Positions 43,246 through 63,770 of a DNA stretch of 64,000 nt are shown here, in pieces (position 1 is the stretch's first letter; each line of letters opens with the position of its first letter). The position numbers were made by a program, and so were the translations under genes. This DNA comes from Sphingomonas nostoxanthinifaciens (GTDB lineage: Bacteria > Pseudomonadota > Alphaproteobacteria > Sphingomonadales > Sphingomonadaceae). The stretch covers positions 2,972,001-3,036,000 of the forward strand of contig NZ_CP082839.1 of the NCBI RefSeq assembly GCF_019930585.1, written 5' to 3'. The notes under the pieces are model-generated. The model was not told the DNA's origin. It ran no database searches and saw only the letters and a list, made by a program, of their open reading frames with translations.

Positions 43246-43908
43246 TCAGCCGGGAAAGGCCATCCTCGGCCCGATCCGCGCGGCACCCTGCTTGAGGCCA
43301 CGAAAGCCCCGCGCGAACAGCCGCGTCGTGCGCACCACGTCGGCGATCTGCGCCGGACGGGCGGCGAGGCTCTTCGCCATCGCCGCGGCATCGATCCCGC
43401 CATCGGGGCGCATGCTGACGGTGATGGCGTGCGGCAGCAGGTGATCGACCTCGTCCGAGATGATGCGGACGATGGCGAAGGGCAGGCCATGCGCCTGCGC
43501 CACCCTGGCGGCGATGTGGCTCTCCATATCGACCGCCAGCGCGGTGTGGCGGCGGCCGAGCGCGCGCTTTTCCGCCACGGTATCGATCATGCGGCCGTCG
43601 GCGAAGAAGGTGCCGACGCGCGCGCCGGGCAGCCGCGCCGCCAGCGCATCGCGCCAGTGCGGATCGCAGGCGAGGTCGATCGCGCCGGCGATTGCGTCAC
43701 CCACCACCCAGTCGCCGATCGCGAGGCCGTCGGCGAGGCCACCAGTCAGCCCGAAGCTGGCAATGCCGGCCGCACCCCGCGCGACCGCCGCCTGCAATTT
43801 CTGCTCGAGCCCCGCCGCATTGCCCCCACCCGCGACGGTGACGATGCCCGGCCCGGCGACGATCGCCGCCTCGCGGTTGAAGCCGGTCGCGACGATGATC
43901 GGGCTCAC
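43246..43908 (-). CDS. hpnG: Hopanoid biosynthesis nucleoside phosphorylase-like HpnG
   Basis: A 220-residue purine-nucleoside-phosphorylase fold protein. In hopanoid synthesis HpnG removes adenine from adenosylhopane to give phosphoribosylhopane, leading to bacteriohopanetetrol. Visible elements: FGLTGGLADGLAIGDWVVGD and the base/ribose-binding stretch ALAVDMESHIAARVA with the conserved ME (VDMES), then IVRIISDE. The start is GTG at 43908, overlapping the hpnF stop (GTGA), with GGAGGGG upstream. Last gene of the minus-strand hopanoid operon. The preceding step enzyme, HpnH, is not encoded in the window. Confidence 0.9.
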   Translation of the reverse strand: MSPIIVATGFNREAAIVAGPGIVTVAGGGNAAGLEQKLQAAVARGAAGIASFGLTGGLADGLAIGDWVVGDAIAGAIDLACDPHWRDALAARLPGARVGTFFADGRMIDTVAEKRALGRRHTALAVDMESHIAARVAQAHGLPFAIVRIISDEVDHLLPHAITVSMRPDGGIDAAAMAKSLAARPAQIADVVRTTRLFARGFRGLKQGAARIGPRMAFPG

Positions 43909-45863
43909 ATCCCCTCCGTGGGTCGGCGGAGATTGCCGCGCTTCAGGTTGCGATAGCGGGCGAGCGCCCACAGCGGGAAATATTTGGGATAGCCGTGGTA
44001 GCGCAGGTAGAAGACGCGCGGGAAACCACCGCCGACATAATCCTCCTGCCCCCACAGGCCGTCCGCGTCCTGATTGGCCTGCAGCCACTCGACGCCACGC
44101 GCGACCGCCTCGGCATCGACCTCGCCCACCGCCATCAAGGCGAGCAGCGCCCAGCCGGTCTGCGACGGGTTGGACGGCGCATGTTCGTGGCCTTTGCGGT
44201 CGAGCGCGTAGCTGTCGCAACTCTCGCCCCAGCCGCCATCCGCATTCTGGATCGACACCAGCCAGTCGACCGCGCGCCGCACCATCGGCGTCTGCGGATC
44301 GACCCCGGCGACGTTGAGCGCACACAGCACCGACCAGGTGCCATAGACATGGTTCACGCCCCAGCGCCCCCACCAGCTGCCCTCGGGATGCTGATCGCGC
44401 TCGAGCCACGCGACGCCGCGCGCGATCGCCTCGCTATCCTCGGGCCGGCCGAGCTGCGCCAGCATCGACACGCAGCGCGCGGTGACGTCGGCGGTCGGCG
44501 GATCGAGCAGCGCGCCATGATCGGCAAAGGGAAGGTCGTTGAGATAATAATATGCGTTGTCGGCCTCGAACGCGCCCCAGCCGCCGTCGGTCGACTGCAG
44601 GCCGAGCACCCATTCGCGCCCGCGCGCGATCGCCTCGTCCAGATCGCCGGCGATGCCGCGCCGCTGCGCCTGATCCATCGTCATCACGACCACGGCGGTA
44701 TCGTCGAGATCGGGATAATGGTCGTTGCGATACTGGAACGCCCAGCCGCCCGGACGCACGTCGGGCCGCACATCGGACCAGTCGCCCTTCACGTCGAGCA
44801 CCTGCAGCGGCTTGAGCCAGCCGAGCCCCTCGGTTACGGTCGCCTCGGCCGCCTGGCCGCCGACCTCCTGCATCGCCTGCGCGGCGAGCGCGGTATCCCA
44901 CACCGGCGAGACGCAGGGCTGGCAATAGATTTCGCCATCCGCGCGGCGGACGAGCAATTTCTCGACAGAGGTGCGCGCGAGCTTCCGCGCCGGATGATCG
45001 TCGGGATAGCCGAGCACGTCGAACATCATCACGCTGTTGGCCATCGCGGGATAAATGGCGCCGAGCCCATCCTCGCCGTTCAACCGCTCCAGCACGAAAT
45101 CCTCGCACGCCTTCAGCGCGCGCCTGCGCAGACCCTTCGGCCAGAAGCGCTCGAACCGCTTGAGACCGACGTCGAGCGCCTTGAAGCCGTTGACCCACAG
45201 CCACTTGCCCTCGCTCGCGCGGGAGAAAGCGAGCGGCCCCGACGCGTAGAGCTCGTCCACCTTCACCCCGCGCGGGTTGCGCGCGAGCGGACGCAATGTC
45301 TGCAGCACGAGCAACGGCACGATCACCGTGCGCGCCCAATAGGACATTTTAGACAGGTGGATCGGGAAGCGGCGCGGGAGCAGGATGATCTCGGGCGGCA
45401 TGGTCGGCACGGTCGACCACGGCCCCGCGCCGTACAGCGCCAGCTGGATGCGGGTGAAGACGTTGGCATTGCCCGCGCCGCCGGCCGCCAGCACCGCCGC
45501 CCGCGCGCGCGCCATGTGCGGCGCGTCGATATCGTCGCCGATCATCTTCAGCGCATAATAGGCCTTCACCGTCGCCGAGAGATCGAAGCTGCCGCCATGA
45601 TAGAGGCTCCAGCCGCCATGATCGGCCTGAATCCGCCGCAGGTAGCGGCCGATCCCGGCCTCCATCTCCAGATCGTCGGGCTCGGCGAGATAGTGGCGCA
45701 GCAGGATATATTCGGCGGGGATGGTGCAATCCGCCTCCAGCTCGAACACCCAATGGCCGTCGTCGCGCTGCACATCGCCAAGCGCGGTCGAGGCGCGGCC
45801 GATCGCCGCCTCCACCCCCGACAGCGGATCGGGGAAAGCGGTGTCGGGTTCAGGCCGGTACAT
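43905..45863 (-). CDS. hpnF: Squalene-hopene cyclase
   Basis: Membrane-associated cyclase that turns squalene into hopene and diplopterol (also called shc). 652 residues, the usual length. The protonating DxDD motif is DLDD at 385-388, and several QW repeats are visible (DGGWGAFEADNAYY, EGSWWGRWGVN, DGGWGESCDSY). The start MYRPEPDTAF at 45863 lies 14 bp inside the end of hpnE; the longer upstream frame is antisense noise. Coupled to hpnE and hpnG. Confidence 0.97.
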   Translation of the reverse strand: MYRPEPDTAFPDPLSGVEAAIGRASTALGDVQRDDGHWVFELEADCTIPAEYILLRHYLAEPDDLEMEAGIGRYLRRIQADHGGWSLYHGGSFDLSATVKAYYALKMIGDDIDAPHMARARAAVLAAGGAGNANVFTRIQLALYGAGPWSTVPTMPPEIILLPRRFPIHLSKMSYWARTVIVPLLVLQTLRPLARNPRGVKVDELYASGPLAFSRASEGKWLWVNGFKALDVGLKRFERFWPKGLRRRALKACEDFVLERLNGEDGLGAIYPAMANSVMMFDVLGYPDDHPARKLARTSVEKLLVRRADGEIYCQPCVSPVWDTALAAQAMQEVGGQAAEATVTEGLGWLKPLQVLDVKGDWSDVRPDVRPGGWAFQYRNDHYPDLDDTAVVVMTMDQAQRRGIAGDLDEAIARGREWVLGLQSTDGGWGAFEADNAYYYLNDLPFADHGALLDPPTADVTARCVSMLAQLGRPEDSEAIARGVAWLERDQHPEGSWWGRWGVNHVYGTWSVLCALNVAGVDPQTPMVRRAVDWLVSIQNADGGWGESCDSYALDRKGHEHAPSNPSQTGWALLALMAVGEVDAEAVARGVEWLQANQDADGLWGQEDYVGGGFPRVFYLRYHGYPKYFPLWALARYRNLKRGNLRRPTEGM

Positions 45864-47103
45864 GCTGCGCTGCCATCTTCGCTGCGGTCGCTCCCGAACG
45901 GATCGCTCCCTCGATCGTCGCCGGGAGGCCGGTGCGTGTCCAGTCGCCCGCGAGCAGCAGGTTGGCAAGCCCCGTCGCATCGGCCGCCGGGCGCTTCGCA
46001 TCCTGCTCGGGCGTGGCGGAGAAGGTCGCGCGCTTTTCGCGCACGATCTGCCACGCGGGCATCGGCCCCTTGAGGCCATGGACCCGCGCCACCTCGCCCC
46101 AGATCGTGCGCGCGAGCTCCTCGCGATCGGTGCCGTCGAGGCGGTCGGCAGCGCTGGTCGTGGTCGAGACGCGATCGGGGAAAGCGAACACCCATTCCGC
46201 CGTGCCGCCGACGAGGCCGACGATCGGATCGGCGCCGGCGGGCGGCGTCACGCGGAAATGCGCGTTGACGATCGAATGGTGGCGGTCGGGCACGGTCAGG
46301 CTCGGCAGCAATTCGGCCGCGCCCCAGCTCGGTGTGGCGAGGATCACGACGCCGTTCGCGCCGACCGGCTCGATCCCCTCGGCGAAGGTCAGCGTGGTCA
46401 CGCGGCCGCCCTCGATCCCCAGCGCGCGCACGCGCCGGCCGAGGCGGATGGTCGCCCCATGCCGCTCCAGCCACGCCAGCGCCGGATCGACGAACGCGGC
46501 GGCGAGGCTGGGCGTGGCGATGCGCGGGCGGCAGGCGCGCCCGCCCTTGGCAAGCGTCTCCCCCACCACCGCGCCGGCGAGCGCGGCCGACCCGATCTCG
46601 GCCTGCGTGTTGAGCGCGGCGACGAGGAACGGCTCGAACAGCCGCCGCCATACCGTGCCCGTCACCGGCATCCGGTCGCGCACCTCGGCATCGTCGGGCG
46701 CGCCGATCAGACGCTTGAGCGGCAGATAGTCGCGCACCTTGGTGCCGGGCACGCGCCTTTTTTTCGCGAACACCCACCACGGGATCGGTCCGGCATTGGG
46801 ATGGAGCGTCCAGCGCGTCCCGTCGCTCAGGTCCATGAAGGGGAAGCGCGCATCCTCCGGTCCGTCGAGCCGATCGGCGGCGTCGATCGTGTTCAGATAA
46901 TCGTGGACGGCGTGATTGCCGCTCAACACCAGATGATTGCCGTTGTCGATCGTCAGGCCGAGCTGCGGATCGAGATAGGAGCGGCAGCGGCCGCCGGCCT
47001 GTGTCGCCGCCTCCGATACCGTCACCTTCCAGCCGCGCTCCGCCAGGCGCACGGCCGCGCTGAGCCCGGCCAGCCCCGCCCCGATCACATGCGCGCGCCT
47101 CAT
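45850..47103 (-). CDS. hpnE: Hydroxysqualene dehydroxylase HpnE
   Basis: FAD enzyme of 417 residues that reduces hydroxysqualene to squalene as the third step from farnesyl diphosphate. The dinucleotide-binding start HVIGAGLAGLSAAVRLAERG and GGRCRSY, and the C-terminal LLAGDWTRTGLPATIEGAI are characteristic of the phytoene-desaturase-like HpnE family. Start ATG at 47103, overlapping hpnD by ATGA; its end overlaps the hpnF start. Confidence 0.95.
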   Translation of the reverse strand: MRRAHVIGAGLAGLSAAVRLAERGWKVTVSEAATQAGGRCRSYLDPQLGLTIDNGNHLVLSGNHAVHDYLNTIDAADRLDGPEDARFPFMDLSDGTRWTLHPNAGPIPWWVFAKKRRVPGTKVRDYLPLKRLIGAPDDAEVRDRMPVTGTVWRRLFEPFLVAALNTQAEIGSAALAGAVVGETLAKGGRACRPRIATPSLAAAFVDPALAWLERHGATIRLGRRVRALGIEGGRVTTLTFAEGIEPVGANGVVILATPSWGAAELLPSLTVPDRHHSIVNAHFRVTPPAGADPIVGLVGGTAEWVFAFPDRVSTTTSAADRLDGTDREELARTIWGEVARVHGLKGPMPAWQIVREKRATFSATPEQDAKRPAADATGLANLLLAGDWTRTGLPATIEGAIRSGATAAKMAAQHVPA

Positions 47104-47915
47104 CGCGACAGCTTCAGGCGCAATAGCAGCCAGGCAAGCCGCAGCTTGTTGTGCCCCACCCGGCTGCGCGGCGGCGTCCAGCCCTTCGCCACCATCCGCC
47201 GCAGCAGCATGGCGTAGGCGCCGGCCATCAGCCGCGGTGCGATCAGATGGCCGCGCGGGCGCCGGTCGAGGATCGCCTGTGCCTGCGCGAAGTGGACGCG
47301 CGCCTCGGCGGCAAGGCCCTGCGCGACCTGATCGATGCGCGGATCGTCGATCACCTTGGCGATGTCGCCAACGCGGATACCCGCCGTCTCGATCGCCTCG
47401 CGCGGCAGGTAGACGCGCCCGATCGCGGCATCCTCGTCGATATCGCGCAGGATGTTGGTGAGCTGGAGCGCGCGACCGAGATGGTGCGACAGCGCCAGCC
47501 CCGGCTGCTCCTCCATGCCGAACACGCGCACCGACAACCGGCCGACCGCGCTCGCCACGCGATCGCAATAGAGATCCAGCTCGCGATGCTGCGGCCAGCG
47601 TATGTCGCGCGCGACGTCCATCGCCATGCCGTCGATCACCGCGTTGAAATCGACCTGAAGGCAGCCGAAGCGGCGCACCGCCTCCGACAGATAGGCCGCC
47701 TTGCCGCCGCTGCCGCCGTCATAGAGATCGGCAATGTCGGCGCGCCACTGGTCGAGCGCGACCGCGCGATCCGCGCGCTCGCCTGCCTGATCGTCAGCGA
47801 TGTCGTCGACCTCGCGACAGAAAGCATAGATGGCGTACATCGCCTCGCGCTCGGCCGGCGGCAGCACGCGCATGCCGGCGTAGAACGAGCTGCCGCGGGC
47901 GGTATTGGCGTTCAC
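47100..47915 (-). CDS. hpnD: Presqualene diphosphate synthase HpnD
   Basis: Squalene/phytoene-synthase fold enzyme, 271 residues, joining two farnesyl diphosphates to presqualene diphosphate. First Asp-rich motif: CREVDDIADD; second: NILRDIDEDA, both intact for Mg-diphosphate binding. GTG start at 47915 overlaps the hpnC stop (GTGA). Confidence 0.95.
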   Translation of the reverse strand: MNANTARGSSFYAGMRVLPPAEREAMYAIYAFCREVDDIADDQAGERADRAVALDQWRADIADLYDGGSGGKAAYLSEAVRRFGCLQVDFNAVIDGMAMDVARDIRWPQHRELDLYCDRVASAVGRLSVRVFGMEEQPGLALSHHLGRALQLTNILRDIDEDAAIGRVYLPREAIETAGIRVGDIAKVIDDPRIDQVAQGLAAEARVHFAQAQAILDRRPRGHLIAPRLMAGAYAMLLRRMVAKGWTPPRSRVGHNKLRLAWLLLRLKLSR

Positions 47916-48754
47916 GATCGGCCGCCGATCCAGCGGCCGAGCGCCGCCTGCGCGGCGAGGCCCAGCGCCTCCGCCTTGCCGTGCACGACGCGTTCCGCCA
48001 GCGGATCGCGGCGGCGCAGCCGCGCCGCGAGGCTGATCGCGAGGCGCTGGATCACCGCCACCTCCATGCCGAGCCGGGCGTCGCGGATTTCCCCCGCGAA
48101 GCGCGCCGAGACCATCAGCAGATCCTGGCAGCGTGCGGCGCACTGGACGATCACCGAACGCAGCGCCGGCGAGGCATGCGGCGCCACCAGTTCGTCGGTT
48201 CGCGCACCCGCGGCGGCGAGCATGTCCTGCGGCAAATAGACGCGGTCGAGATCGCGATAATCCTTCCCGCAATCCTGCAGGTGATTGATGATCTGCAACG
48301 CGGCGCACAACGCGTCGTTCGCCGGCCACAGCGCGCGATCCTCGCCATGCACGTCGAGCACGAACCGGCCGACCGGCATCGCCGAGACACGGCAATAATC
48401 GATCAGGTCGTCCCAATCGTCGTAGCGCAGCTTGGTGACGTCGCGGCGGAACGCCTCCAGCAAATCGAGGCCGTGCACCGGATCGAGCCCGCGCTCGCGA
48501 CATACGCTGCGCAGGGCGACCGCGGTCGGCTCGGAATTGCTCTCGCCGGACAGGCTGGCGCGCATCGCCTCCAGCCCGGCGAGCTTCTCGTCCGCGCTCG
48601 CCACCATATTGTCGGAGACGTCATCGGCGGCACGTGCGAAGCGGTAATAGGCCATGATCGGCGCGCGATGCGCCGGCCGGATCAGGCGCGAGGCGACCGG
48701 GAAATTCTCGTCCTTGTGCCCCTTGCCCGAAGCGAGATTGGCAGCCTTCGTCAT
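47912..48754 (-). CDS. hpnC: Hydroxysqualene synthase HpnC
   Basis: Partner of HpnD: converts presqualene diphosphate to hydroxysqualene. 280 residues, same fold. The first motif reads RAADDVSDNMV; the second is altered to HLQDCGKDYRD, as known for HpnC. N-terminus GHKDENFPVASRLI is typical. Start ATG at 48754, coupled to hpnB by ATGA. Confidence 0.95.
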   Translation of the reverse strand: MTKAANLASGKGHKDENFPVASRLIRPAHRAPIMAYYRFARAADDVSDNMVASADEKLAGLEAMRASLSGESNSEPTAVALRSVCRERGLDPVHGLDLLEAFRRDVTKLRYDDWDDLIDYCRVSAMPVGRFVLDVHGEDRALWPANDALCAALQIINHLQDCGKDYRDLDRVYLPQDMLAAAGARTDELVAPHASPALRSVIVQCAARCQDLLMVSARFAGEIRDARLGMEVAVIQRLAISLAARLRRRDPLAERVVHGKAEALGLAAQAALGRWIGGRS

Positions 48755-49881
48755 GCCCCGAGCTGCGCCTGCGCGCGCCCCTTCCACATGCCGCCGCGCC
48801 CGCGCCAATGCGCCCACGCGCTCGCGAAGGTGGCGCCGCTATAGAACAGCGCGATCGCGGGCAGCGCCACGCCCCACAGCGGCGAACGGCGATAGAAATG
48901 CAGCATCGGCTGGAACGCGACGGTCATCAGGCCCCATGCGCCCAAGCCGAACGCACGCGCAAGCCCGTGGCCGAACAGCGCCGCCGCCGGAGGAACGAGA
49001 TAGACCAAGGCCAGCCCGAGCAATGTGCCGACCAGCAAGGCGCGCGAGTAACGCAACTGAGCATAGGCCGAACGCGCGATCATCGCGCCGATCGCGCCCC
49101 AGCCGCCATAGGGTCGGATGCTGCGCGAGCGGTGGGTGAGCGCCAGCCGCACCGGCCCCTGCCCCTTCATCGCGACGCCCATCGCGCAATCGTCGATGAT
49201 CGCGCTGGCGATCGTGGCGAGGCCGCCCGCGCCCTTGAGTGCGCTGCGCCGGATCAGCATGCACCCGCCCGCCGCCGCCGCCATGCGGTCGGCCGGATCG
49301 TTCACCCGCGCGAACGGGTAGAGCATCTGGAAGAAGAAGACGAAGGCCGGGATCAGCGCGCGCTCGGCGAACCCGCCCGTCTCCAGCAGCGCCATCGACG
49401 AGTGAAGCGCGAGCCCCTCATTCTCGCCGCGCGCCACCAGCATGCGCAGCGTATCGGGGGCATGCGCGATATCGGCGTCGCTGAACCACAGCCACGGCGC
49501 ACCCTTGCTCGACTGGCGCAGGCCGTTTTCGAGTGCCCACAATTTGCCGGTCCAGCCGGCGGGCGGCGCGGAGCCGGCGACGATCTGCAGCCGCGGGTCG
49601 CCCGCCGCCGCCTCGCGCGCGAAATCGGCGGTGCCGTCGCGGCTGCCGTCATCGACCAGCACTACCGTCAGCGCGCCGGGATAATCCTGCGCCAGCAGCG
49701 AGGCGACTGCGCGGCCGATCACCGGCGCCTCGTCGCGCGCCGGCACGACCGCGAGCACCGCCGGCCATGCGGCCGGAGCGACGATCGGCGCCGTGTCGGT
49801 CTGGTCGGCGCGCCAGAAACGCGCGTGGCCGAGCACGAGATACAGCCAGATTGCGAGCGACAGGCCCGCCGCGATCGTCAT
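48751..49881 (-). CDS. hpnB: Hopanoid biosynthesis glycosyltransferase HpnB
   Basis: Family 2 glycosyltransferase, 376 residues, with an N-terminal membrane helix (about 2-20), nucleotide-sugar-binding VVPARDEAPVIGRAV and VVLVDDGSRDGT, the DxD-like WFSDADIAHAPDT, and a C-terminal membrane part (about 285-360). Found in many hpn clusters; its exact acceptor is not established. Overlaps hpnA and hpnC by 4 bp each. Confidence 0.92.
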   Translation of the reverse strand: MTIAAGLSLAIWLYLVLGHARFWRADQTDTAPIVAPAAWPAVLAVVPARDEAPVIGRAVASLLAQDYPGALTVVLVDDGSRDGTADFAREAAAGDPRLQIVAGSAPPAGWTGKLWALENGLRQSSKGAPWLWFSDADIAHAPDTLRMLVARGENEGLALHSSMALLETGGFAERALIPAFVFFFQMLYPFARVNDPADRMAAAAGGCMLIRRSALKGAGGLATIASAIIDDCAMGVAMKGQGPVRLALTHRSRSIRPYGGWGAIGAMIARSAYAQLRYSRALLVGTLLGLALVYLVPPAAALFGHGLARAFGLGAWGLMTVAFQPMLHFYRRSPLWGVALPAIALFYSGATFASAWAHWRGRGGMWKGRAQAQLGA

Positions 49882-50879
49882 CCCAGCATCCCGGCCGAAC
49901 GGAACCAGGCGAGCGCATCGGTCACGCCCTCGCTCCACGGCCGCGACGCATAGCCGAGCTCGGCCTTCGCGCGGGCGGAGCTGAAGAACATATGGCGGCG
50001 CGCCATCTTCAGCGCGTCGCGCGTCAGCATCGGCTCGCGCCCGGTGATCCGCGCGACCCGCTCGGCACCGAAGGCGAGCGGGATCAGCGGCAGGATCGGC
50101 AGCTTCACGCGCGGCGGCTTGCGCCCGACCTGCCGCGCCACTTCGGCCAGGAACGCGCCCAGCGTCACGTCGTCGCCGCCCAGGATGTAGCGTCGCCCCG
50201 CCAGCCCGCGCTCCAGCGCCAGCACGTGCCCACGCGCGACATCGTCGACATGGACGAAGTTGAGCCCGGTATCGACGAATGCGGGCAGCTTGCCCTTTGC
50301 CGCCTCGATCAGCATCCGTCCGGTCGGCGTCGGCTTCACGTCGCGCGGGCCGATCGGGGTCGAGGGGTTGACGATGATCGCCGGCAGCCCCTGCTCGCCG
50401 ACCATCCGCTCCACCAGCCGCTCGGCGACCACCTTGCTGCGCTTGTAGGCGCCGATCGCCTGATCCTCGGGCAGCGGCCTTTCCTCGTCGGCCGGCGCGA
50501 CCTTCATCGGCTTTATCGTGGCGACGCTGCTGGTGTAGACGATGCGCCTGGTGCCGGCGGTCAGCGCCGCGTCCATCACCGTCTTGGTGCCGAAGCGGTT
50601 GTGGCGCACGATCTCCTCGGGATCGCGCGCCCACAGGCGATAGTCGGCGGCGACGTGCGCAAGATAATCGGTGCCGCGCAGCGCCGCGACGACGCTGGCT
50701 TTGTCCATCATGTCCCCGGTCACGACTTCGCCGGGGAAATCCGCCAGATTCGTGCGATCGCTGCCGCCACGCGCCATCCCGCGCACGGCGTAACCCGCAT
50801 CGACGAAGGCGCGCGCCACCGCCGACCCGACGAAGCCGGACACGCCGGTCACCAGCACCAATCCCTTTGATTCGACCAT
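49878..50879 (-). CDS. hpnA: Hopanoid-associated sugar epimerase-like HpnA
   Basis: Extended short-chain dehydrogenase/epimerase, 333 residues. NAD-binding TGVSGFVGSAVA, active-site TSSVAT with Y-x3-K in GAYKRSKVVAE, and NPSTPIGPRDVKPTPTG. The substrate in hopanoid assembly is not proven. First gene of the minus-strand operon; ATG at 50879 follows GGAGGG within 3 bp. Confidence 0.93.
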   Translation of the reverse strand: MVESKGLVLVTGVSGFVGSAVARAFVDAGYAVRGMARGGSDRTNLADFPGEVVTGDMMDKASVVAALRGTDYLAHVAADYRLWARDPEEIVRHNRFGTKTVMDAALTAGTRRIVYTSSVATIKPMKVAPADEERPLPEDQAIGAYKRSKVVAERLVERMVGEQGLPAIIVNPSTPIGPRDVKPTPTGRMLIEAAKGKLPAFVDTGLNFVHVDDVARGHVLALERGLAGRRYILGGDDVTLGAFLAEVARQVGRKPPRVKLPILPLIPLAFGAERVARITGREPMLTRDALKMARRHMFFSSARAKAELGYASRPWSEGVTDALAWFRSAGMLG

Positions 50880-50972
50880 CAGCCCTCCAGCGGAGGGCGC
50901 GTTAGCCCCAAGCGAGCGGCCATGGAACCCGCCGGTTTCGCGCGCGCCCAAAGCGGCCTAAGGGCGTGGCCG
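50880..50972. promoter_or_regulatory. Divergent promoter region of the two hopanoid operons
   Basis: The 93 bp between hpnA and hpnI must hold the start signals for both operons. It includes CCCTCC-AGC-GGAGGG (50883-50897), an inverted repeat that also supplies the hpnA ribosome site. I do not see a clear sigma-70 or stress-sigma (GGAAC) element. Confidence 0.5.
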
Positions 50973-52091
50973 ATGAGCCTCATCGCGCTCCCCTTCCTTT
51001 TGCTGTCCGCGATCGGCACGGTCTACACGATCGTCGCTGCCGCCACGGTGGCGCGCTTCGGCCGCCTGCCCGCGGCAGCGCCTGCCGCGCCGGAGCCGGT
51101 GACGCTGCTGAAGCCGCTTTATGGCGCCGAGCCGCGGCTGGCGGACAATCTCGCGACCTTCCTGCGCCAGCGCTGGACGGCGCCGGTCGAGATGGTGGCA
51201 GGCGTCCAGCGCCTCGACGATCCGGCGGTCGCCGTCGCGCGTCGGCTCGACGGCGACGTCCGGATCGTGATCGACGACACCGCCCACGGTGCCAACGCCA
51301 AAGTCTCGAACCTCGTCAACATGATGCCGTTCACGACCACCGACCTGCTGGTGCTGAGCGACAGCGACATGAGCGTCGGCCCCGATTACCTCGCCACCCT
51401 CGCCGCGACGCTGGCGCAGCCGGGCGTGGGCGCCGTCACCTGCGTCTATCGCGGGCGCGGCGATGCGGGCTTCTGGTCGGTGCTGAGTGCCGCGGCGGTG
51501 AGCTACCAGTTTCTGCCCTCGGTGCTGGTCGGGCTGCGCTTCGGCCTCGCCGATCCGTGCATGGGATCGACCATCGCGCTGCGCCGCGACACGTTGGCGC
51601 GGATCGGTGGATTCGAGAGCCTGCGCGACGTGCTGGCCGACGATTACCAGATCGGCGTCGGCGTGCGCGCGCTCGGGCTGCGGGTCGCGGTGCCGCCGAT
51701 GGTGGTGACGCACAGCTGCGACGAACCGAGCCTGCGCGCGCTGGCTGCCCACGAATTGCGCTGGACCGCCACGATCCGCGGCATCGACCCGATCGGCCAT
51801 ATCGGCCAGATCGCGACTCACCCGCTGGCGTTCGCGCTGCTGGCCCTGCCGTTTGCGCCGCTTGGCGGGGCGATCGCATTGATCGCCGGGCTGGCCGCGC
51901 GGCTGGCCCTCGTCACCCGCGTCGATCGGCTCGTCGGCACGTCCAGCGCCCCGCGACGTCTGATTTTGTTGCGCGATTGCCTCTCCTTCGCCCTGTTCGT
52001 CGCATCCTTCTTCGCGCGATCGGTTGAATGGCGTGGGCTAAGGCTTAGAATAGGGAATGAAGGGCGCATCGCGCCCGAACCGGAGAATTGA
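50973..52091 (+). CDS. hpnI: Hopanoid biosynthesis glycosyltransferase HpnI
   Basis: Family 2 (ceramide glucosyltransferase-like) glycosyltransferase of 372 residues that adds N-acetylglucosamine to bacteriohopanetetrol, the first step of the cyclitol-ether headgroup. TM helix about 3-25; VTLLKPLYGAEPRL, then VLSDSDMSVGPDYL (D-x-D), PCMGSTIALRRDTL, LADDYQIGVG and the acceptor-site motif HELRWTATIRG (RxxRW-like). C-terminal membrane segments near 290-350. Start ATG at 50973; seven bases separate it from hpnJ. Confidence 0.93.
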   Translation: MSLIALPFLLLSAIGTVYTIVAAATVARFGRLPAAAPAAPEPVTLLKPLYGAEPRLADNLATFLRQRWTAPVEMVAGVQRLDDPAVAVARRLDGDVRIVIDDTAHGANAKVSNLVNMMPFTTTDLLVLSDSDMSVGPDYLATLAATLAQPGVGAVTCVYRGRGDAGFWSVLSAAAVSYQFLPSVLVGLRFGLADPCMGSTIALRRDTLARIGGFESLRDVLADDYQIGVGVRALGLRVAVPPMVVTHSCDEPSLRALAAHELRWTATIRGIDPIGHIGQIATHPLAFALLALPFAPLGGAIALIAGLAARLALVTRVDRLVGTSSAPRRLILLRDCLSFALFVASFFARSVEWRGLRLRIGNEGRIAPEPEN

Positions 52092-52097
52092 CCGTCC

Positions 52098-53543
52098 ATG
52101 CTGCGTACCCTCTTCCTCCAGGCTCCTTCGTTCGACGGCTATGACGGCGGCGCCGGCGCGCGCTACCAGATGAAGCGCGAGGTGAAGTCGTTCTGGTATC
52201 CGACCTGGCTCGCCCAGCCCGCAGCGATGGTGGAAGGCTCGCGCCTGATCGACGCGCCCGCGCACGACCAGGGCTGGGATGACATCGCGCACGAGGTGGA
52301 CGGCAAGGAACTCGTCGTCCTCCACACCTCCACGCCCAGCTTCGGGCAGGACATCCGCACCGCCGCGCTCATCAAGCAGCGCAATCCCAAGGCGTTGGTC
52401 GGTTTCGTCGGCGCCAAGGTCGCGGTCGAGCCGGACAAGAGCCTTGCCGCCAGCCCCGACATCGATTTCGTCGCGCGCGAGGAATATGATTTCACCATCC
52501 TCGAGGTGGCGCAGGGCAAGCCGCTCGCCGAGGTGGACGGCATCACGTGGCGCGCGCCCGACGGCAATTTCGTCACCAACAAGAACCGCGCGATGATCGA
52601 GGACATGGACGTCCTCCCGATGGTCTCGCCGGTCTACAAGCGCGACCTGACGATCGAGAAATATTTCGGCGGCTATCTGCGCCACCCTTATGTCAGCTTC
52701 TACACCGGTCGCGGCTGCAAGAGCCGCTGCACCTTCTGCCTGTGGCCGCAGACGATCGGCGGGCACAATTACCGCTTCCGCTCGATCCCCAAGGTGATCG
52801 AGGAGGTGCAGTACATCCTGCGCGAGATGCCGCAGGTGAAGGAAATCTTCTTCGACGACGACACGCTGACCGACGTGCACGATCGCGTCGAGGATCTGGC
52901 GCGCGCGCTGGGCGAACTCGGCTTCGGCAAGCCGGGCTTCAAGGTGTCGTGGAGCTGCAACGCCAAGGCCAACGTACCGAGGAAGACGCTGGAGGTGCTG
53001 AAGGCCAACGGCCTGCGCCTGCTGCTTGTCGGCTATGAGAGCGGCAACCAGAAGATCCTGCACAACATCAAGAAGGGCCTTCTTGTCGACGTCGCGCGGC
53101 AGTTCACCAAGGACTGCCACGAGCTCGGCATCGTGATCCACGGCACCTTCATCCTCGGCCTGCCGGGCGAGACGCTGGAGACGATCGAGGAGACGATCGA
53201 ATTCGCCAAGGAGATCAACCCCTACACCATCCAGGTGTCGCTGGCGGCGCCCTATCCCGGCACGTTCCTCTACAAGCAGGCGATCGAGAATAACTGGTTC
53301 GACGGCAGCGACCATCTGCTGACCGACGGCGGCACTCAGATCGCTCAATTGTCCTACCCGCATCTGCCGGCGAGCGTAATCTTCGACAAGGTCGAGGAGA
53401 TGTACAAGCGCTTCTACTTCCGCCCGCGCAAGATCGGCTCGATCGTCGGCGAGATGGTGCGCGACTTCGACATGATGAAGCGCCGCCTGCGCGAGGGCGT
53501 CGAGTTCTTCAACTTCCTGCGCAACCGCAAAGAGGCGGCATAG
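52098..53543 (+). CDS. hpnJ: Radical SAM enzyme HpnJ
   Basis: Radical SAM protein, 481 residues, proposed to contract the glucosamine ring to the cyclitol in hopanoid headgroup synthesis. The iron-sulphur triad is C207-x3-C211-x2-C214 (RGCKSRCTFCLWPQT), followed by EIFFDDDTLTD and VSWSCNAKANV. An N-terminal cobalamin-binding-like region occupies about 60-135. Part of the plus-strand operon; a 125-bp gap with a repeat follows before hpnK. Confidence 0.96.
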   Translation: MLRTLFLQAPSFDGYDGGAGARYQMKREVKSFWYPTWLAQPAAMVEGSRLIDAPAHDQGWDDIAHEVDGKELVVLHTSTPSFGQDIRTAALIKQRNPKALVGFVGAKVAVEPDKSLAASPDIDFVAREEYDFTILEVAQGKPLAEVDGITWRAPDGNFVTNKNRAMIEDMDVLPMVSPVYKRDLTIEKYFGGYLRHPYVSFYTGRGCKSRCTFCLWPQTIGGHNYRFRSIPKVIEEVQYILREMPQVKEIFFDDDTLTDVHDRVEDLARALGELGFGKPGFKVSWSCNAKANVPRKTLEVLKANGLRLLLVGYESGNQKILHNIKKGLLVDVARQFTKDCHELGIVIHGTFILGLPGETLETIEETIEFAKEINPYTIQVSLAAPYPGTFLYKQAIENNWFDGSDHLLTDGGTQIAQLSYPHLPASVIFDKVEEMYKRFYFRPRKIGSIVGEMVRDFDMMKRRLREGVEFFNFLRNRKEAA

Positions 53544-53667: not shown

Positions 53668-54525
53668 GTGCGTAACCTCATCGTCACCGCCGACGATTTC
53701 GGTGCCGACCTTGCCGTCAACGAGGCGGTCGAGCAGGCGCATCGCCACGGCATCCTGACCGCCGCCAGCCTGATGGTATCGGGCGCGGCATGCGGCGACG
53801 CGGTCGCGCGGGCGAAGCGCCTGCCGTCGCTCGGCGTCGGGCTGCATCTCGTGCTGGTCGACGGCACGCCGGTGCTGCCGGCTGCTCAGGTGCCCGATCT
53901 GGTCGACCAGGCCGGCCGCTTCCGCGACAATATGGCGACCGCGGGGATGCGCTTCTTCTTCAGCCCCTGCGTCCGCAAGCAGTTGCGTGCCGAGATCGAG
54001 GCGCAGTTCGCCGCCTTCGCCGCGACCGGGCTGCCGCTCGATCACGTCAACGCCCACAAGCATTTCCACCTCCACCCCACGATCGGGGCGCTGATCGTCG
54101 AGACCGGCCGCCGCTACGGGCTGGCCGCGGTGCGCGCGCCGGTCGAGCCGCGCGCGATCATCGACGCGATCGAGCCGACCCCGCACGGGCTGGCCGAGCG
54201 GGTCGCGACGCCATGGGCCAAGGCGACGCGCGCGCGCATGGCGCGATCCGGCCTGGTCGTCCCCGATCAGGTGTTCGGCCTCGCGTGGAGCGGCGCGATG
54301 ACCGCCGGGCGGGTCCGTGCGCTGATTGCGCGCCTGCCCGAGGGCCTGAGCGAGCTCTACGTCCATCCTGCCACCGCCGACCAGTTCATCGGCCATGCCG
54401 CGGGCTACCGCTATCGCGACGAGTTCGCCGCCCTCACCGATGCGGGTGTGCGGGCCGAGGTCGCCAACCGGGGCGTCCGCCTCGGGCGCTTCGCCGATTT
54501 CGTTGACGTACGGAGGGCCGCATGA
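53668..54525 (+). CDS. hpnK: Hopanoid deacetylase HpnK (YdjC/ChbG-like)
   Basis: A 285-residue carbohydrate deacetylase that removes the acetyl group from the N-acetylglucosamine added by HpnI. Metal and catalytic motifs: TADDFG at 7-12, GVGLHLVL near 60 and HKHFHLHP at 131-138 (H-x4-H ligands). Start GTG at 53668, supported by GGGGAGGAA from the preceding repeat. Ends in a 4-bp overlap with the diiron protein gene. Confidence 0.93.
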   Translation: MRNLIVTADDFGADLAVNEAVEQAHRHGILTAASLMVSGAACGDAVARAKRLPSLGVGLHLVLVDGTPVLPAAQVPDLVDQAGRFRDNMATAGMRFFFSPCVRKQLRAEIEAQFAAFAATGLPLDHVNAHKHFHLHPTIGALIVETGRRYGLAAVRAPVEPRAIIDAIEPTPHGLAERVATPWAKATRARMARSGLVVPDQVFGLAWSGAMTAGRVRALIARLPEGLSELYVHPATADQFIGHAAGYRYRDEFAALTDAGVRAEVANRGVRLGRFADFVDVRRAA

Positions 54526-55415
54526 ATGACATGAGGCGGATCGCACCCGATCCCGATGGCGCGCCGCGCCCGATCAAGCTGGGCAGCCCGGAGCACAAGA
54601 TGCTCTTCTGCCACATGCTGCTCGACACGCACGACGCCTACAAGCCCGCGCTGATCGACTGGCCTCCGCTGGAGCCCGAGACGCAGGCGCGGATCGCCTC
54701 GTTACCAATCTGGGATATGGCGGTGCAGACCGAGGGGCGTACCGGCCTGTTCGTGAAGACGTTCGGCGAATCCCTCAGCGATCCCCTGCTCAAGCGCGCC
54801 GTCGAGATGGATGCGTTCGAGGAGCAGCGTCACAAGATCGTGCTGCACGACATGGTGACCTCCTACGGCATCAAGCTGGAGGAGGAACCGCCTTACGTGC
54901 GCCCCAAGGATCCCGAATGGGCGTTCATGCGATCCGGCTATTCGGAGTGCATCGACAGCTTCTTCGGCTTCGGCCTGTTCAAGGTCGCCAAGGATACCGG
55001 CTTCTTCCCCGACGAATTGATCGACACGTTCGAGCCGGTGATGCGCGAGGAAGGCCGCCACATCCTGTTCTTCGTCAACTGGGTGGCGTGGTGGCGCCGT
55101 AACATGCCGTGGTGGCGCCGGCCTTATTTCGAGGCCAAGGTCATCGTCGTGTGGCTGTTCCTGATCTGGGAACGGATCGATATGGCCAAGGGCATGGGCG
55201 ACAACAGCAAGGCGCAAGAGAACAATTTCACGCTCAATGGCTCGAAGGAACTGGGCGTCGAGATATCGTTCGGTGAGCTGGCGCGCATCTGCCTCGCCGA
55301 GAATGACCGCCGGCTGGCGGTTTATGACCAACGGCTGATCCGACCGCGCTTCGTGCCCGGTGCGATCCGGCTCGTGCTGCGCTTTCTGGGTAACCCCAAG
55401 CCTGTGACGTCATGA
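54522..55415 (+). CDS. Ferritin-like diiron protein of the hopanoid operon, unassigned
   Basis: A 297-residue protein I cannot place in a named hopanoid family. A four-helix ferritin-like diiron site is readable: E71 (QTEGRTG), E101-x2-H104 (FEEQRHK), E142 (YSECIDSFFGFG) and E177-x2-H180 (REEGRHI), i.e. the E, ExxH, E, ExxH order of diiron oxygenases and rubrerythrin-like proteins. After the last ligand helix comes a very Trp-rich patch (NWVAWWRRNMPWWRR, about 186-200) and an amphipathic hydrophobic helix (205-218), suggesting membrane association. It overlaps hpnK and hpnL by 4 bp each, so it is translated with them and very probably acts on hopanoids. An oxidative modification, such as hydroxylation or desaturation, is inferred, not shown. 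Confidence 0.8.
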   Translation: MNDMRRIAPDPDGAPRPIKLGSPEHKMLFCHMLLDTHDAYKPALIDWPPLEPETQARIASLPIWDMAVQTEGRTGLFVKTFGESLSDPLLKRAVEMDAFEEQRHKIVLHDMVTSYGIKLEEEPPYVRPKDPEWAFMRSGYSECIDSFFGFGLFKVAKDTGFFPDELIDTFEPVMREEGRHILFFVNWVAWWRRNMPWWRRPYFEAKVIVVWLFLIWERIDMAKGMGDNSKAQENNFTLNGSKELGVEISFGELARICLAENDRRLAVYDQRLIRPRFVPGAIRLVLRFLGNPKPVTS

Positions 55416-56398
55416 CCGCCAAGCTTCGCTGGCCTTTGCTCGCGGCCATGGTTTTCGGCCTTGCCGCGGCTTTGTGGGCGCTCGGCCGCGAGGGCTGGCA
55501 TGAGGTGCTGGGCAGCGCCTTGCGCGTCGGTCTTCCCGGCTTTGCGTTGCTGTGCGCGATCAGTGGCGTGACCTTCGTCATCCTCGGTGCGGCATGGCTG
55601 GCGGCGGCGCCGGGCGAGCCCGCGAGCCGTCTGCCCCGCTTCACGTGGGCGCGGATGGCGCGCGAGGCCGCCAACGATCTGCTGCCCTTCTCGCAGCTTG
55701 GCGGCCTCGTCGTCGGCGTGCGCACGCTCGCGACCGCCGGCATCGCCCCGACGCGCATCTATGCCGCGATGATCGTCGACCTGACGACCGAGATGGGCGC
55801 GCAATTGATCTTCACCCTGTTCGCCATCTGGGCGTTCGGCAGCGCCTTTGCCGAGGGCAGCGCCGATCCGCGTCTGCTGCCGCTGCTGTGGACCGGCATC
55901 GGCATCGCGACCGGGCTGATGCTGCTATTCTTCGTGTGCCAGCGCCCGGCGTTGCGCTTCGCCGCATTCCTGGGTGCGCGCATGCTGCCCGATGCGGGGC
56001 TGATGGCGCAGGCCGTGAACAGCCGTCTGGCGGACGTCTACCGCCAGCCGCAGCGTGTGCTTGCCGCATTCCTGCTCAACCTAGCGGCGTGGGGCGCGAC
56101 CGCTTTCTGGGCGTGGCTCGGTCTGCGGCTGATCGGGGCGCATGCCAGCCTCGCCCACGCCGCCGCACTGGAAAGCGCGATCTTCGCATTGCGCAGCGCC
56201 GCCTTCCTCGTCCCCGGTGCGCTCGGCGTACAGGAGGCGGGCTATGCACTGCTGGCGCCTCTGGTCGGGATCGATCCGGCGGCGGCGCTGGCGTTGTCGC
56301 TGCTGCGACGCGCGCGCGACGTGGCGCTGGGCGTGCCGACGATGCTGATCTGGCAGGCCGGCGAAATGCGGCCGGCCACGCGCGCGCCGGTCGTCTGA
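55412..56398 (+). CDS. hpnL: Hopanoid-associated membrane protein HpnL
   Basis: A 328-residue integral membrane protein of the lysylphosphatidylglycerol-synthase-TM (UPF0104)-like family, eight or so helices. LGAAWLAAAPGE, ARMAREAANDLLPFSQLGGL and the near C-terminal RSAAFLVPGALGVQEAGYALL are characteristic. HpnL is implicated in placing or transporting hopanoids in the outer membrane. Coupled to the diiron gene by ATGA; last hpn gene. Confidence 0.92.
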   Translation: MTAKLRWPLLAAMVFGLAAALWALGREGWHEVLGSALRVGLPGFALLCAISGVTFVILGAAWLAAAPGEPASRLPRFTWARMAREAANDLLPFSQLGGLVVGVRTLATAGIAPTRIYAAMIVDLTTEMGAQLIFTLFAIWAFGSAFAEGSADPRLLPLLWTGIGIATGLMLLFFVCQRPALRFAAFLGARMLPDAGLMAQAVNSRLADVYRQPQRVLAAFLLNLAAWGATAFWAWLGLRLIGAHASLAHAAALESAIFALRSAAFLVPGALGVQEAGYALLAPLVGIDPAAALALSLLRRARDVALGVPTMLIWQAGEMRPATRAPVV

Positions 56399-56409: not shown

Positions 56410-56934
56410 ATGGACTGGGCGATCCGGCAGGCGAGTGCCGGGGACAGCGGCCGGCTGGCGCTGATCGGTGCGGCAACCTTCCTCGAGACCTTCGCGGACA
56501 TCCTCGACGGCGACGCCATCGTCGCACATTGCCGCGATGCGCATGCCGAAGCGGCCTATTCCGCCTATCTCGCCGCCGGAGCGAGCGCGTGGCTGGCTGA
56601 GACGACGGCCGGAGGGGCACCGATCGGTTTCGCGCTTCTCGCCGCAGCCGACATTCCGGGCATGAACCCGACGGGCGATATCGAGCTCAAGCGCATCTAC
56701 AGCCTGTCGCGCTTCCACGGTCAGGGCCTCGGCGCCGCGTTGATGGCCTGCGCGATGGAGGAAGCGGCGCGCCGTGGCGCAAAACGGCTGCTGCTCGGCG
56801 TCTACAAGTGCAATGCGCGCGCTATCGCCTTCTACGAAAAGGCGGGCTTCGAGCCGATCGCCGAGCGCCGCTTCCGCGTCGGCGGCCGCGACTATGACGA
56901 TCTCGTTCTTGCGCGGCCGGTGGAGCGACCTTAG
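56410..56934 (+). CDS. GNAT family N-acetyltransferase
   Basis: A 174-residue acetyltransferase. The acetyl-CoA pyrophosphate loop is in RFHGQGLGAALMACAMEEA (R/Q-x-x-G-x-G/A form) and the C-terminal NARAIAFYEKAGFEPIAERRF is typical of GNAT proteins acting on amino groups of small molecules or protein N-termini. Begins 11 bp after hpnL on the same strand, so it may be read with the hopanoid operon, but nothing links it to hopanoids. Convergent with the HAD gene that follows. Confidence 0.85.
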   Translation: MDWAIRQASAGDSGRLALIGAATFLETFADILDGDAIVAHCRDAHAEAAYSAYLAAGASAWLAETTAGGAPIGFALLAAADIPGMNPTGDIELKRIYSLSRFHGQGLGAALMACAMEEAARRGAKRLLLGVYKCNARAIAFYEKAGFEPIAERRFRVGGRDYDDLVLARPVERP

Positions 56935-60965: not shown

Positions 60966-63770
60966 TCAGGAATTGAGAGCGGTGGTCACCAGCTCTTCGA
61001 GCAGGGCGAGATTGTCGTGCTTCAGGTGGACGCGCAGCACGCGCTGGCCACGCTCCGCCAGCACGTCGAGGTCGCCGCGCGCCTGCGCCACCTGCACCGT
61101 GCCGAAGCTGGCCTTCTTGCCGGGGATGGCGAGATCGGGATCGGCATGCCGCGTGATTTCGAGGAACACGCCCGACTTGGGCCCGCCCTTATAGGCCTGG
61201 CCGGTCGAGTGGAGGAAGCGCGGGCCGAAGCCCGCGACCGTCGCCACGTCGTGCGCCTTCACCACCGCCTCGCGGATGCGCGCGACGGCCGCCGCATGCT
61301 CCTCGTTGCGCTCGATGTAGGCGAGGATGCCGACATAATCGCCCGGATTGGCGCTGGCGAAATGTGCCTGAAGGATCGCCGCCGGATCGGTCGCGGCGAA
61401 GCTGTGATCGCCGGGCGCGAAGAAGGCGAGATCGGCGTCCTCGTGGAACGGCGTCTCGGGCGCGAGACTGCCCGATTGCTCATAGGCGTCGACCAGCTCG
61501 CGCGTCTTGACCTTCGCATCCTCGACGTCGGGCTGATCGAACGGATCGATGCCGATCACCGCCCCGGCGATCGCGGTCGCGATCTCCCAGCGGAAGAATT
61601 CCTGCCCGATCAGATCCTTGCCCGCGAGGCCGATCCGCACGACCGGCTGGCCGGCGGCGACCAGCGCGTCGGCGAACGCATTCACCTCCGATGCGTCATC
61701 GCCATCCAGCGTCAGCAGCGCGAAGATACGGTCGGTGCCGTAATCCTCGACCGGCGACAGCGGCTCGAGATCGACGGGGACGATGCCCTTGCCGAGCTTG
61801 CCGGTCGATTCCGCCAGCAACTGCTCCAGCCACGATCCGAACGGCTTCAGCGTCGGCGAGGTGAGCAACGTCACCTTGTCGCGGCCGGCGACCGCCGCCT
61901 CGCCGAGGATCGCGCCGAGGATCGCACCCGGATTCTCGCCAGGAGGCGCATCGGGCCCGCACGCCTGCGCCATCGGCGCCGCCGTGGCGAAGAATGCCTC
62001 GACGTCGATGCCCATGATCGCGGCCGGCACCATGCCGAACACCGACAGTACCGAATAGCGCCCGCCGATCGCCGGATCGCCGGGGAAGATGTGCGCGAAG
62101 CCGTCCGCCTTGGCGAGCGCCTCCAGCTTCGAGCCCGGATCGGTCACCGCGACGAAGTGGCTGCCCTGCTTGCCCGCCTTGTCGAAGAAGAACGCGCGCA
62201 GCAGCTCCGGCTCCATCGTCGAGCCCGACTTGGACGAGACGAGGAACAAGGTGTCGGCGGGATCGACCGCGGCCAGCGTCGTCGCGATCTGCCCCGGATC
62301 GGTCGAATCGAGCGCGTGGACATAGGGGCTGCCGTCCTTCGGCCCGATGATCTCGGCGATCACCTCCGGCCCGAGGCTCGATCCGCCCATGCCGAGCAGC
62401 ACCGACGCCTTGTAGCCCTTGGCTTCCTCGCCGAGCGCCTTCAGCGCCGCGAAATCGACCTGCTTGCCCTGCCCTGCGGCGAGCCAGCCGAGCCACTTGG
62501 CCTCGTCCTTGCCGGTCCACAACGTCGCGTCGCCGTGCCACAGCCGGCGCGTCCACGCATCCGCGCGCGCCGTCTCCAACCGCGCATCGACCGCCTTCTG
62601 CAGACCGTCGGGCAATTGCGCGATCATCGTGTTGAGCTTGGCGCCGGCCGCCTTGGCACGCTTGGCGGCGATCGCGCCAAGCAAAGAATCTGCCGCGTCG
62701 GCGAACAGTTTCACGCCATCCTCGACCAACGCCTCGGTCACGCCGGCCAGATCGAGACCGAGCCGGTCGGCCTCGGCCAGCACGTGCTTGGCTTCATCCA
62801 CGCCATCGGCCAGCGTCTGCGCGAGCGTGCCGTGATCGCGGAACGCATCCATCGTCTTGGGCGGCAGCGTGTCGACCGTGTCCGGGCCGATCAGATTGTC
62901 GACGTAGAGCGTGTCGGGATAGGCCGGATCCTTGGTGCCGGTCGACGCCCACAGCAGCCGCTGCGGCTGCGCGCCCTTGGCGAGCAGGGCCTGCCAGCGA
63001 TCGGACGCGACGAATTCGAGGAACCACTGATAGGCCAGCTTCGCGTTGGCGATGGCGACCTTGCCGCGCACCGCCTTGAGCGCCTCGGCCTCGCCGTCGC
63101 CATTCTTCAGGCGCGTGTCGATCTTCTTGTCGATCTGCGCGTCGATACGGCTGACGAAGAAGCTGGCGACGCTGGCGATCCGGTCGATCGGCTCGCCCTT
63201 CGCGACGCGCGCTTCGAGCCCCGCGACATAGGCCTCGGCCACCGCCTTGTAGGCATCGAGCGAGAACAGCAGCGTCACGTTGATCGACAGACCGTCCTCG
63301 ATCAGCTGGCGGATCGCGGGCACGCCGGCCTTGGTGCCCGGCACCTTGATCATCAGGTTCGGGCGATCGACCATCGCATGCAGCCGCCGTGCCTCGACGA
63401 TCGTCGGCTCGGTGCCGTTGGCGAGATAGGGCGAGACTTCAAGGCTGACATAGCCGTCCTTGGCATCCAGCCGGTCGTAGACCGGGCGCAGCGTGTCGGC
63501 CGCATCCTGGATGTCCTTCACCGCCAGCGCTTCGTAGGTGTCGGTGATGCTGGCGCCGGCATTGGCCTGGACGAACGACTGGAACTGTTCGTCATAGGCC
63601 TCGCCATGGCCCATCGCCTTCTCGAAGATCGACGGGTTGGAGGTGACGCCGGTGACGCCATCCTCTTCCACCAGTTTCTTGAGGCCGCCTTCCTTGAGGA
63701 AGGAGCGGTCGACAAAATCGAGCCAGGGTGCCTGGCCGGATTCCTGAAGCTGCTTCAGCAGACTGGTCAT
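60966..63770 (-). CDS. tal-pgi: Bifunctional transaldolase / glucose-6-phosphate isomerase
   Basis: A natural fusion of 934 residues. N-terminal transaldolase (about 1-370) has [13 protein letters not shown] and the Schiff-base lysine region [11 protein letters not shown] (K near 140). C-terminal phosphoglucose isomerase (about 395-930) has [14 protein letters not shown] and [15 protein letters not shown] with sugar-phosphate-binding serines. Both activities in one chain let fructose-6-phosphate pass between the pentose phosphate cycle and glucose-6-phosphate. Such fusions occur in sphingomonads and acetic acid bacteria. Start ATG at 63770, 3 bp after the tkt stop. Confidence 0.95.

Follow-up and report, generated by a model that had tools for sequence, protein, structure and literature searches.

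Between hpnK and hpnL in a 64,000-nt stretch of the Sphingomonas nostoxanthinifaciens genome (NZ_CP082839.1, positions 2,972,001–3,036,000; hereafter the window, in whose positions all coordinates are given) lies a gene, 54522–55415, whose product belongs to a conserved family without a name, a group of hopanoid-linked diiron-type proteins. We use FERR as a working name for this product and FERR2 for its paralogue. The ligand set, fold model, gene linkage, co-occurrence and hopanoid phenotypes together point to FERR as the hydroxylase that would act at C-31 of the bacteriohopanepolyol side chain and convert tetrol to pentol, a function to which we assign a probability of about 0.55. We found no published description of FERR in the open-access literature. 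A 2025 survey of the hopanoids of 54 alphaproteobacteria (PMC12583986), used here through its Table 3 and selected passages, calls the genes for pentols and hexols unknown; in those passages no candidate is found near the hpn cluster and no known Hpn enzyme is assigned to pentol formation.

The gene overlaps both neighbours by 4 bp through the same tetranucleotide, ATGA, at 54522–54525 (end of hpnK) and at 55412–55415 (start of hpnL). The preliminary description of this DNA had given the length of 297 residues, the coordinates and both overlaps exactly, and its statement that the protein is none of the hopanoid proteins known by name stands as well: the window protein has no match in Pfam (E ≤ 10), NCBIfam (E ≤ 0.01) or the sequences of the PDB (E ≤ 10). 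Weak Pfam matches appear among the 49 aligned FERR members, to AurF (PF11583) in 22 (best E 1.3e-3), Rubrerythrin (PF02915) in 15 (4.9e-4) and Ferritin_2 (PF13668) in 12 (1.8e-4), none of them in the window protein.

Six residues, E71, E101, H104, E142, E177 and H180, form a complete diiron-type ligand set, as that description had proposed. They are invariant in 49/49 aligned FERR members, which are 31–80% identical to the window protein, and identical in 147/147 homologues of a wider set that includes FERR2 and omits duplicates, frames with a stop or shorter than 220–240 residues, and a 612-residue fusion. Just 28 columns of the wider set are fully conserved, a group that includes every one of the six ligands, which puts their conservation far above chance. 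In an AlphaFold2 model built with 47 of the 49 aligned sequences (pLDDT 89.5, pTM 0.88), the E / ExxH / E / ExxH ligands sit on four helices (Table 1).

Structure comparison gives R2-like ligand-binding oxidases and ribonucleotide reductase R2 as the closest solved folds. The model aligns with 6qrz at a VIA Z of 14.9 (4.0 Å over 217 residues, 16% identity) and Z is still 13.9 at rank 50. Helical models that lack a clear match typically have a best Z near 14, which makes the top Z weak evidence by itself, and the R2-like assignment therefore rests on the ligand pattern and the fold combined. The helix layout and the R2-like nearest folds agree with the ligands meeting at one predicted metal site, and the arrangement that marks the superfamily, two ExxH motifs and two further carboxylates across four helices, is present. 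As judged from sequence and model, FERR is a family of its own inside the R2-like/ferritin-like diiron superfamily, with predicted use of iron and O2. The Trp-rich patch noted earlier is found at residues 187–201, but W191 is kept in only 45 and W197 in only 79 of 147 homologues. The hydrophobic helix described after it is there too, spanning residues 200–227, with the most hydrophobic 15-residue stretch of the protein starting at residue 202; this segment may contact the membrane.

Several known systems resemble FERR in part. R2lox and ribonucleotide reductase R2 relatives carry the same E / ExxH / E / ExxH ligand pattern and share the overall fold with the model, but their gene context differs and sequence searches give no significant match; the NCBIfam model of R2lox is touched by 1/49 members (E 0.071) and not by the window protein. 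MiaE is a tRNA hydroxylase whose target is an isoprenoid side chain; a weak profile match to a MiaE-type structure (5ux1, E 0.12, profile positions 70–182) is below significance, and FERR differs in having extra C-terminal helices and in its substrate, which would be a membrane lipid. AcsF, the magnesium-protoporphyrin monomethyl ester cyclase, is a diiron enzyme that needs O2 and works on a CH2 group. Weak matches are found to PRK13654 in eight of the 49 members (best E 1.2e-4) and to TIGR02029 in one (0.013), the window protein matching neither, but FERR loci have no pigment pathway context. HpnG, HpnH, HpnI, HpnJ, HpnK and HpnO, which act in the same lipid pathway, are from unrelated families, and HpnI, HpnJ, HpnK or HpnH is encoded beside the FERR gene in many loci.

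FERR is confined to genomes with a squalene-hopene cyclase in all samples checked. A five-row profile matches 16 of 398 genomes sampled across the phylum, of which 14 are clear positives; the weak partial matches in G199 (E 4e-4) and G417 (6.6e-4), both outside the cyclase-positive genomes, were dropped. All 14 encode the cyclase above cut-off, versus 47/398 overall (hypergeometric 1.5e-14, treating genomes as independent and ignoring their relatedness). A second set of 30 genomes or records repeats the pattern: 27 carry FERR, including genes far from hpn, and 27/27 have the cyclase above cut-off. HpnK is above cut-off in just 9/14 clear positives and not in the other five, so FERR is independent of the cyclitol-ether branch, and its presumed modification of the common polyol chain appears to be optional. 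Its distribution is uneven. Within the window's family, HpnK occurs in 13/149 genomes and FERR in 3/149, all three with HpnK (the two 149-genome sets are taken as the same), and in the family that includes G455 (Commensalibacter melissae) the same profile matches 84/160 genomes. Profile searches with no positive control inside the family find FERR in 0/149 genomes of the family of G202, in which we presume the survey's Nitrobacteraceae, Afipia included, to belong, and in 0/61 of the family of G268. G268 itself is PF02461-positive and has a hopene cyclase but no FERR; it need not be a methanotroph, as its three identical copies fit ammonia oxidisers too.

Gene neighbourhoods were examined in the best 80 of 85 confirmed loci from a single scan across about 85,000 species genomes by two exact peptides, either of which suffices, with the window Hpn proteins and Cupriavidus HpnB, HpnH and HpnN as queries. 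Other hpn or shc genes lie at 58/80 FERR loci, in the orders HpnK-FERR-HpnL (38 loci), HpnK-FERR-FERR2-HpnL (15), HpnK-FERR (2), FERR-HpnL (2) and HpnJ-FERR-HpnK (1). HpnK thus precedes and HpnL follows FERR in 53/80 loci, 15 of them with FERR2 in between. Elsewhere the partners change: Cupriavidus metallidurans has FERR-hpnB followed by hpnA, ispH, hpnH and hpnN, G303 has FERR and FERR2 at opposite ends of hpnN-hpnH-shc-hpnE-hpnC-hpnB-hpnA, and in G454 FERR is likewise linked to hpn/shc genes. At nine sphingomonad-family loci without FERR (L106–L114), hpnK adjoins hpnL with gaps of up to ~240 bp. Mirror distances over 54 loci correlate at r 0.93 for FERR-HpnL and 0.66 for both FERR-HpnK and FERR-HpnJ, descriptive values from which relatedness is not removed. 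Strong linkage is seen in sphingomonads and in a number of other alphaproteobacteria, and Cupriavidus shows linkage too; in the remaining lineages it was lost or never arose. A sphingomonad-like FERR (74% identity) with hpnL after it is also present on an actinobacterium-labelled contig (L029), which was probably misbinned.

Reported hopanoid profiles place pentols in species that carry the gene. Among those with FERR present, pentol plus hexol and unsaturated hopanoids amount respectively to 90% and 0% in Sphingomonas mali, 41% and 0% in Sphingobium estronivorans, 23% and 1% in S. formosensis, 15% and 0% in Novosphingobium nitrogenifigens and 29% and 56% in Kozakia baliensis (PMC12583986 Table 3). 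The Kozakia assignment of our genome (G583) rests on its contig 2, which shares 100% identity with the K. baliensis plasmid across the 15 kb that were compared. Burkholderia cenocepacia carries FERR in a strain other than those profiled for hopanoids, and a bacteriohopanepentol cyclitol ether was annotated by mass spectrometry in this species, according to a passage of PMC8560942. Profile search finds no FERR in the HpnK-positive Zymomonas mobilis (G046); the passages of PMC12969272 and PMC4676935 at hand name the tetrol, its glucosamine and its cyclitol ether for Zymomonas, and the word 'pentol' is absent from them. The five Nitrobacteraceae of the survey have 0% pentol in the data used here (PMC12583986). 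N. rosa and S. changbaiensis, listed there with 0% pentol, are not among the 80 FERR loci, as expected.

In the proposed mechanism, FERR would be an oxygenase with an R2-like fold and a carboxylate-bridged diiron centre, attached peripherally to the membrane. It would hydroxylate bacteriohopanetetrol, whether the tetrol is free, a glycoside or a cyclitol ether, at C-31 of the side chain to give bacteriohopanepentol. The place of this step relative to HpnI, HpnJ and HpnK is tentative. Electrons would presumably come from an external donor; there is no electron donor among the annotated operon genes. The preliminary description had suggested an oxygen-dependent modification of hopanoids, naming hydroxylation or desaturation of the side chain or rings as examples. 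The phenotype data favour side-chain hydroxylation, and a direct O2-dependent hydroxylation of the CH2 group beside the tetrol would best fit both a diiron enzyme and the patterns of presence and absence; ring desaturation is disfavoured in sphingomonads by the 0–1% of unsaturated hopanoids in the survey excerpts. The general idea of a hopanoid modification is probably sharpened in this way to side-chain hydroxylation, the missing pentol step.

A number of observations weigh against C-31 hydroxylation or against parts of the evidence for it. Sphingomonas haloaromaticamans (51% pentol) and Stakelama sediminis (20%) are not among the 80 FERR loci. The scan seems sensitive in sphingomonads, where the first peptide pattern was found in 32/32 and the second in 19/32 loci, and these two pentol makers may therefore truly lack FERR; they may have another route, or may be missing or differently named in the genome collection. 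Across the eight surveyed sphingomonads, pentol is present in 4/4 with FERR seen and in 2/4 without, which alone is not significant, and the match between genotype and phenotype follows phylogeny, for which no correction was made. Of the HpnK-positive genomes of the window's family, 10/13 are without FERR, although 6/8 surveyed sphingomonad producers make pentols in the survey data used. The excerpts of PMC8590665 report the pentol cyclitol ether in Rhodopila strain LVNP, which was grown with and without oxygen, and leave the growth condition of the sample unstated; anoxic pentol synthesis, should it occur there, would contradict an O2-dependent enzyme in this organism. The survey's authors, in the passages at hand, incline towards a route in which a 32-oxo compound is formed by oxidation and then hydrated (PMC12583986). 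The missing pentol makers, Rhodopila and the 32-oxo route are the reasons why we hold the function at 0.55. For the fold, Foldseek returns no match at E ≤ 0.001 (best E 1.9e-3).

Linkage also has its gaps, and the earlier expectation that homologues lie with hopanoid genes holds for the majority of the 80 loci and fails for the rest. At 22/80 loci no hpn/shc gene is found in the flanks examined, some of which are short; these are 19 Burkholderia/Paraburkholderia loci together with L043, L044 and L085. The same is true of 8/11 regions around the phylum-sample positives, acetic acid bacteria among them, with hpn neighbours in the other three (L121, L122 and L130), and the examined flanks of the B. 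cenocepacia FERR locus hold no hpn/shc gene. The narrower claim that FERR is tied to the headgroup genes as such finds no support, in view of the five clear positives without HpnK, the Cupriavidus gene next to hpnB, and the HpnK-positive relatives without FERR.

Other explanations account for part of the same evidence. As a ring desaturase making delta-6 or delta-11 hopanoids, FERR would suit the appearance of acyl-ACP desaturases in its fold list and the reported coexistence of the gene with unsaturated hopanoids in Kozakia and B. cenocepacia. The four FERR-carrying sphingomonads, at 0, 0, 1 and 0% unsaturated hopanoids, speak against it, as does Afipia broomeae, with 43% unsaturated in the survey data and yet presumably in a family with FERR in 0/149 genomes; we regard this activity as very unlikely, and the values of ≤1% led us to reject it as the principal explanation. 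In another reading, unlikely by our estimate, FERR would open an oxidation-then-hydration route to pentols by oxidising C-32 or by preparing the chain in some other way, and pentols would require it although it is not the hydroxylase. A 32-oxo hopanoid in Zymomonas is cited as a possible intermediate in the available passages of the survey (PMC12583986), and oxidation of an alcohol carbon would be within reach of a diiron enzyme, but Zymomonas mobilis, the source of the 32-oxo compound, is without FERR, and the overlaps with hpnK and hpnL leave no room at this position in the window for a partner hydratase (elsewhere it was not sought). The position between hpnK and hpnL in 53/80 loci would suit another O2-based modification, for instance one that oxidises the sugar or cyclitol headgroup or that yields an isomer. 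We judge this explanation improbable, since five of the 14 clear positives are without HpnK above cut-off and the headgroup pathway is thus not required.

Two further proposals would take the hydroxylation away from FERR altogether. A protein of the sterol desaturase family (PF04116) might hydroxylate the side chain, with FERR in a supporting or other role. The spread of that family, with about 2/3 of Rhodospirillales, half of Sphingomonadales and no Hyphomicrobiales, resembles the pentol pattern in the survey's available passages (PMC12583986), its members occur in 6/6 genomes checked, and it could explain the pentols of sphingomonads without FERR. We nevertheless think this quite unlikely: the PF04116 protein lies outside the hpn cluster according to the same passages (PMC12583986), and the family is a wide one, in which the single member of Zymomonas and that of Sphingobium estronivorans, compared by eye, are unlike one another. 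FERR itself has no PF04116 match, either in the window protein (E 10) or in the listed families of the 49 members. The chance that FERR is a metal or oxidative-stress protein of the ferritin or rubrerythrin kind, merely travelling with the cluster, appears very remote; the weak Rubrerythrin and Ferritin_2 matches in 15 and 12 of the 49 members suggest it, and against it stand the lack of a rubredoxin match in the window protein, the R2-like nearest folds, and the presence of squalene-hopene cyclase alongside FERR throughout the samples checked, even where FERR is unlinked.

FERR2 would extend the proposal for FERR, a putative C-31 hydroxylase, to the next hydroxyl. It is 31–33% identical to the window protein, keeps all six ligands and forms its own clade (17/17, support 1.0) in a midpoint-rooted tree. 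In the family of G455, FERR is found in 83/160 genomes and FERR2 in 21/160, all 21 of which also have FERR; the two were told apart there by score tier (332–359 bits for FERR2, 396–468 for FERR) and not by tree, after dropping the weak match in G709 and fragments in G656 and G574, genomes that were already counted. FERR and FERR2 stand in tandem between hpnK and hpnL in 15/17 alphaproteobacterial loci (L046–L062), many of them metagenome-assembled, and in an Acetobacteraceae-type genome (G502; L090 511–2346, minus strand) they are fused through a basic linker into one open 612-residue frame, which suggests that the two proteins work together. Sphingomonad loci have FERR without FERR2, and two profile searches give a single match in 5/5 positive genomes. 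Both sampled genomes of one genus (g390) have FERR and FERR2; one of them we take to be Asaia bogorensis NBRC 16594. Hexols are confined to Rhodospirillales in the survey passages used and are abundant in two species, Asaia siamensis among them (PMC12583986). FERR2 may make hexols, adding a hydroxyl at C-30 after the FERR step, and the genomes with tandem genes are predicted hexol makers. The wider proposal, that this new diiron family supplies both missing side-chain hydroxylases, FERR for C-31 and FERR2 for C-30, with the number of paired enzymes setting the output of tetrol, pentol or hexol, is tentative and in our view somewhat less probable than its negation.

Hopanoids, pentols and hexols included, are used as sediment biomarkers. 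If FERR has the proposed role, production of pentols and hexols would become predictable from genomes and would be tied to an oxygen-dependent step, which is relevant for reading ancient environments; the role would also help to explain differences between close relatives.

The features of the locus are collected in Table 1. Among the window neighbours of FERR, HpnI, HpnJ, HpnK, HpnL, HpnA, HpnC, HpnD, HpnE and squalene-hopene cyclase all score above curated cut-offs.

Table 1. Features of the FERR locus in window coordinates; residue ranges of helices are from the AlphaFold2 model, and ligand counts refer to the 147-sequence set.
Feature	Position	Strand	Basis
FERR gene, 297-residue R2-like diiron-type protein, putative bacteriohopanepolyol C-31 hydroxylase	54522..55415	+	
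GGAGG, likely ribosome-binding site, 5 nt upstream of the FERR ATG	54512..54516	+	sequence
Codon of ligand E71 (helix 64–83)	54732..54734	+	invariant 147/147
Codons E101 to H104, first ExxH (helix 88–114)	54822..54833	+	invariant 147/147
Codon of ligand E142 (helix 131–159)	54945..54947	+	invariant 147/147
Codons E177 to H180, second ExxH (helix 164–194)	55050..55061	+	invariant 147/147
Trp-rich stretch and hydrophobic helix 200–227, possible membrane contact	55080..55202	+	
hpnK, 4-bp overlap with the FERR gene	53668..54525	+	TIGR03473, 393.5 bits
hpnL, 4-bp overlap with the FERR gene	55412..56398	+	TIGR03476, 263.7 bits
hpnJ (radical SAM, cyclitol ether)	52098..53543	+	TIGR03471, 756.7 bits
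hpnI (glycosyltransferase)	50922..52091	+	TIGR03472, 423.5 bits
hpnA	49878..50951	-	TIGR03466
Divergent arm: hpnC, hpnD, hpnE and squalene-hopene cyclase (some open reading frames start too early)	43905..48817	-	

Some loci depart from the usual order of hopanoid genes. At L039, hpnK comes immediately after hpnI, hpnJ is absent from between the two and hpnL was not found in the available DNA; in this strain the glucosamine form may build up in place of the cyclitol ether. At L040, hpnJ and hpnK lie about 5.6 kb apart, compared with the compact order elsewhere, and the Cupriavidus metallidurans megaplasmid (L105, NC_007974.2) carries two squalene-hopene cyclase genes. In the window itself, a frame resembling a GNAT acetyltransferase (56410–56934, plus strand), assigned by eye, begins 11 bases past hpnL and possibly belongs to the same operon. 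On the minus strand, a 934-residue frame at 60966–63770 resembles, by eye from its translation, a fusion of transaldolase and glucose-6-phosphate isomerase, and it is adjoined by frames that, again by eye, resemble gnd and zwf.

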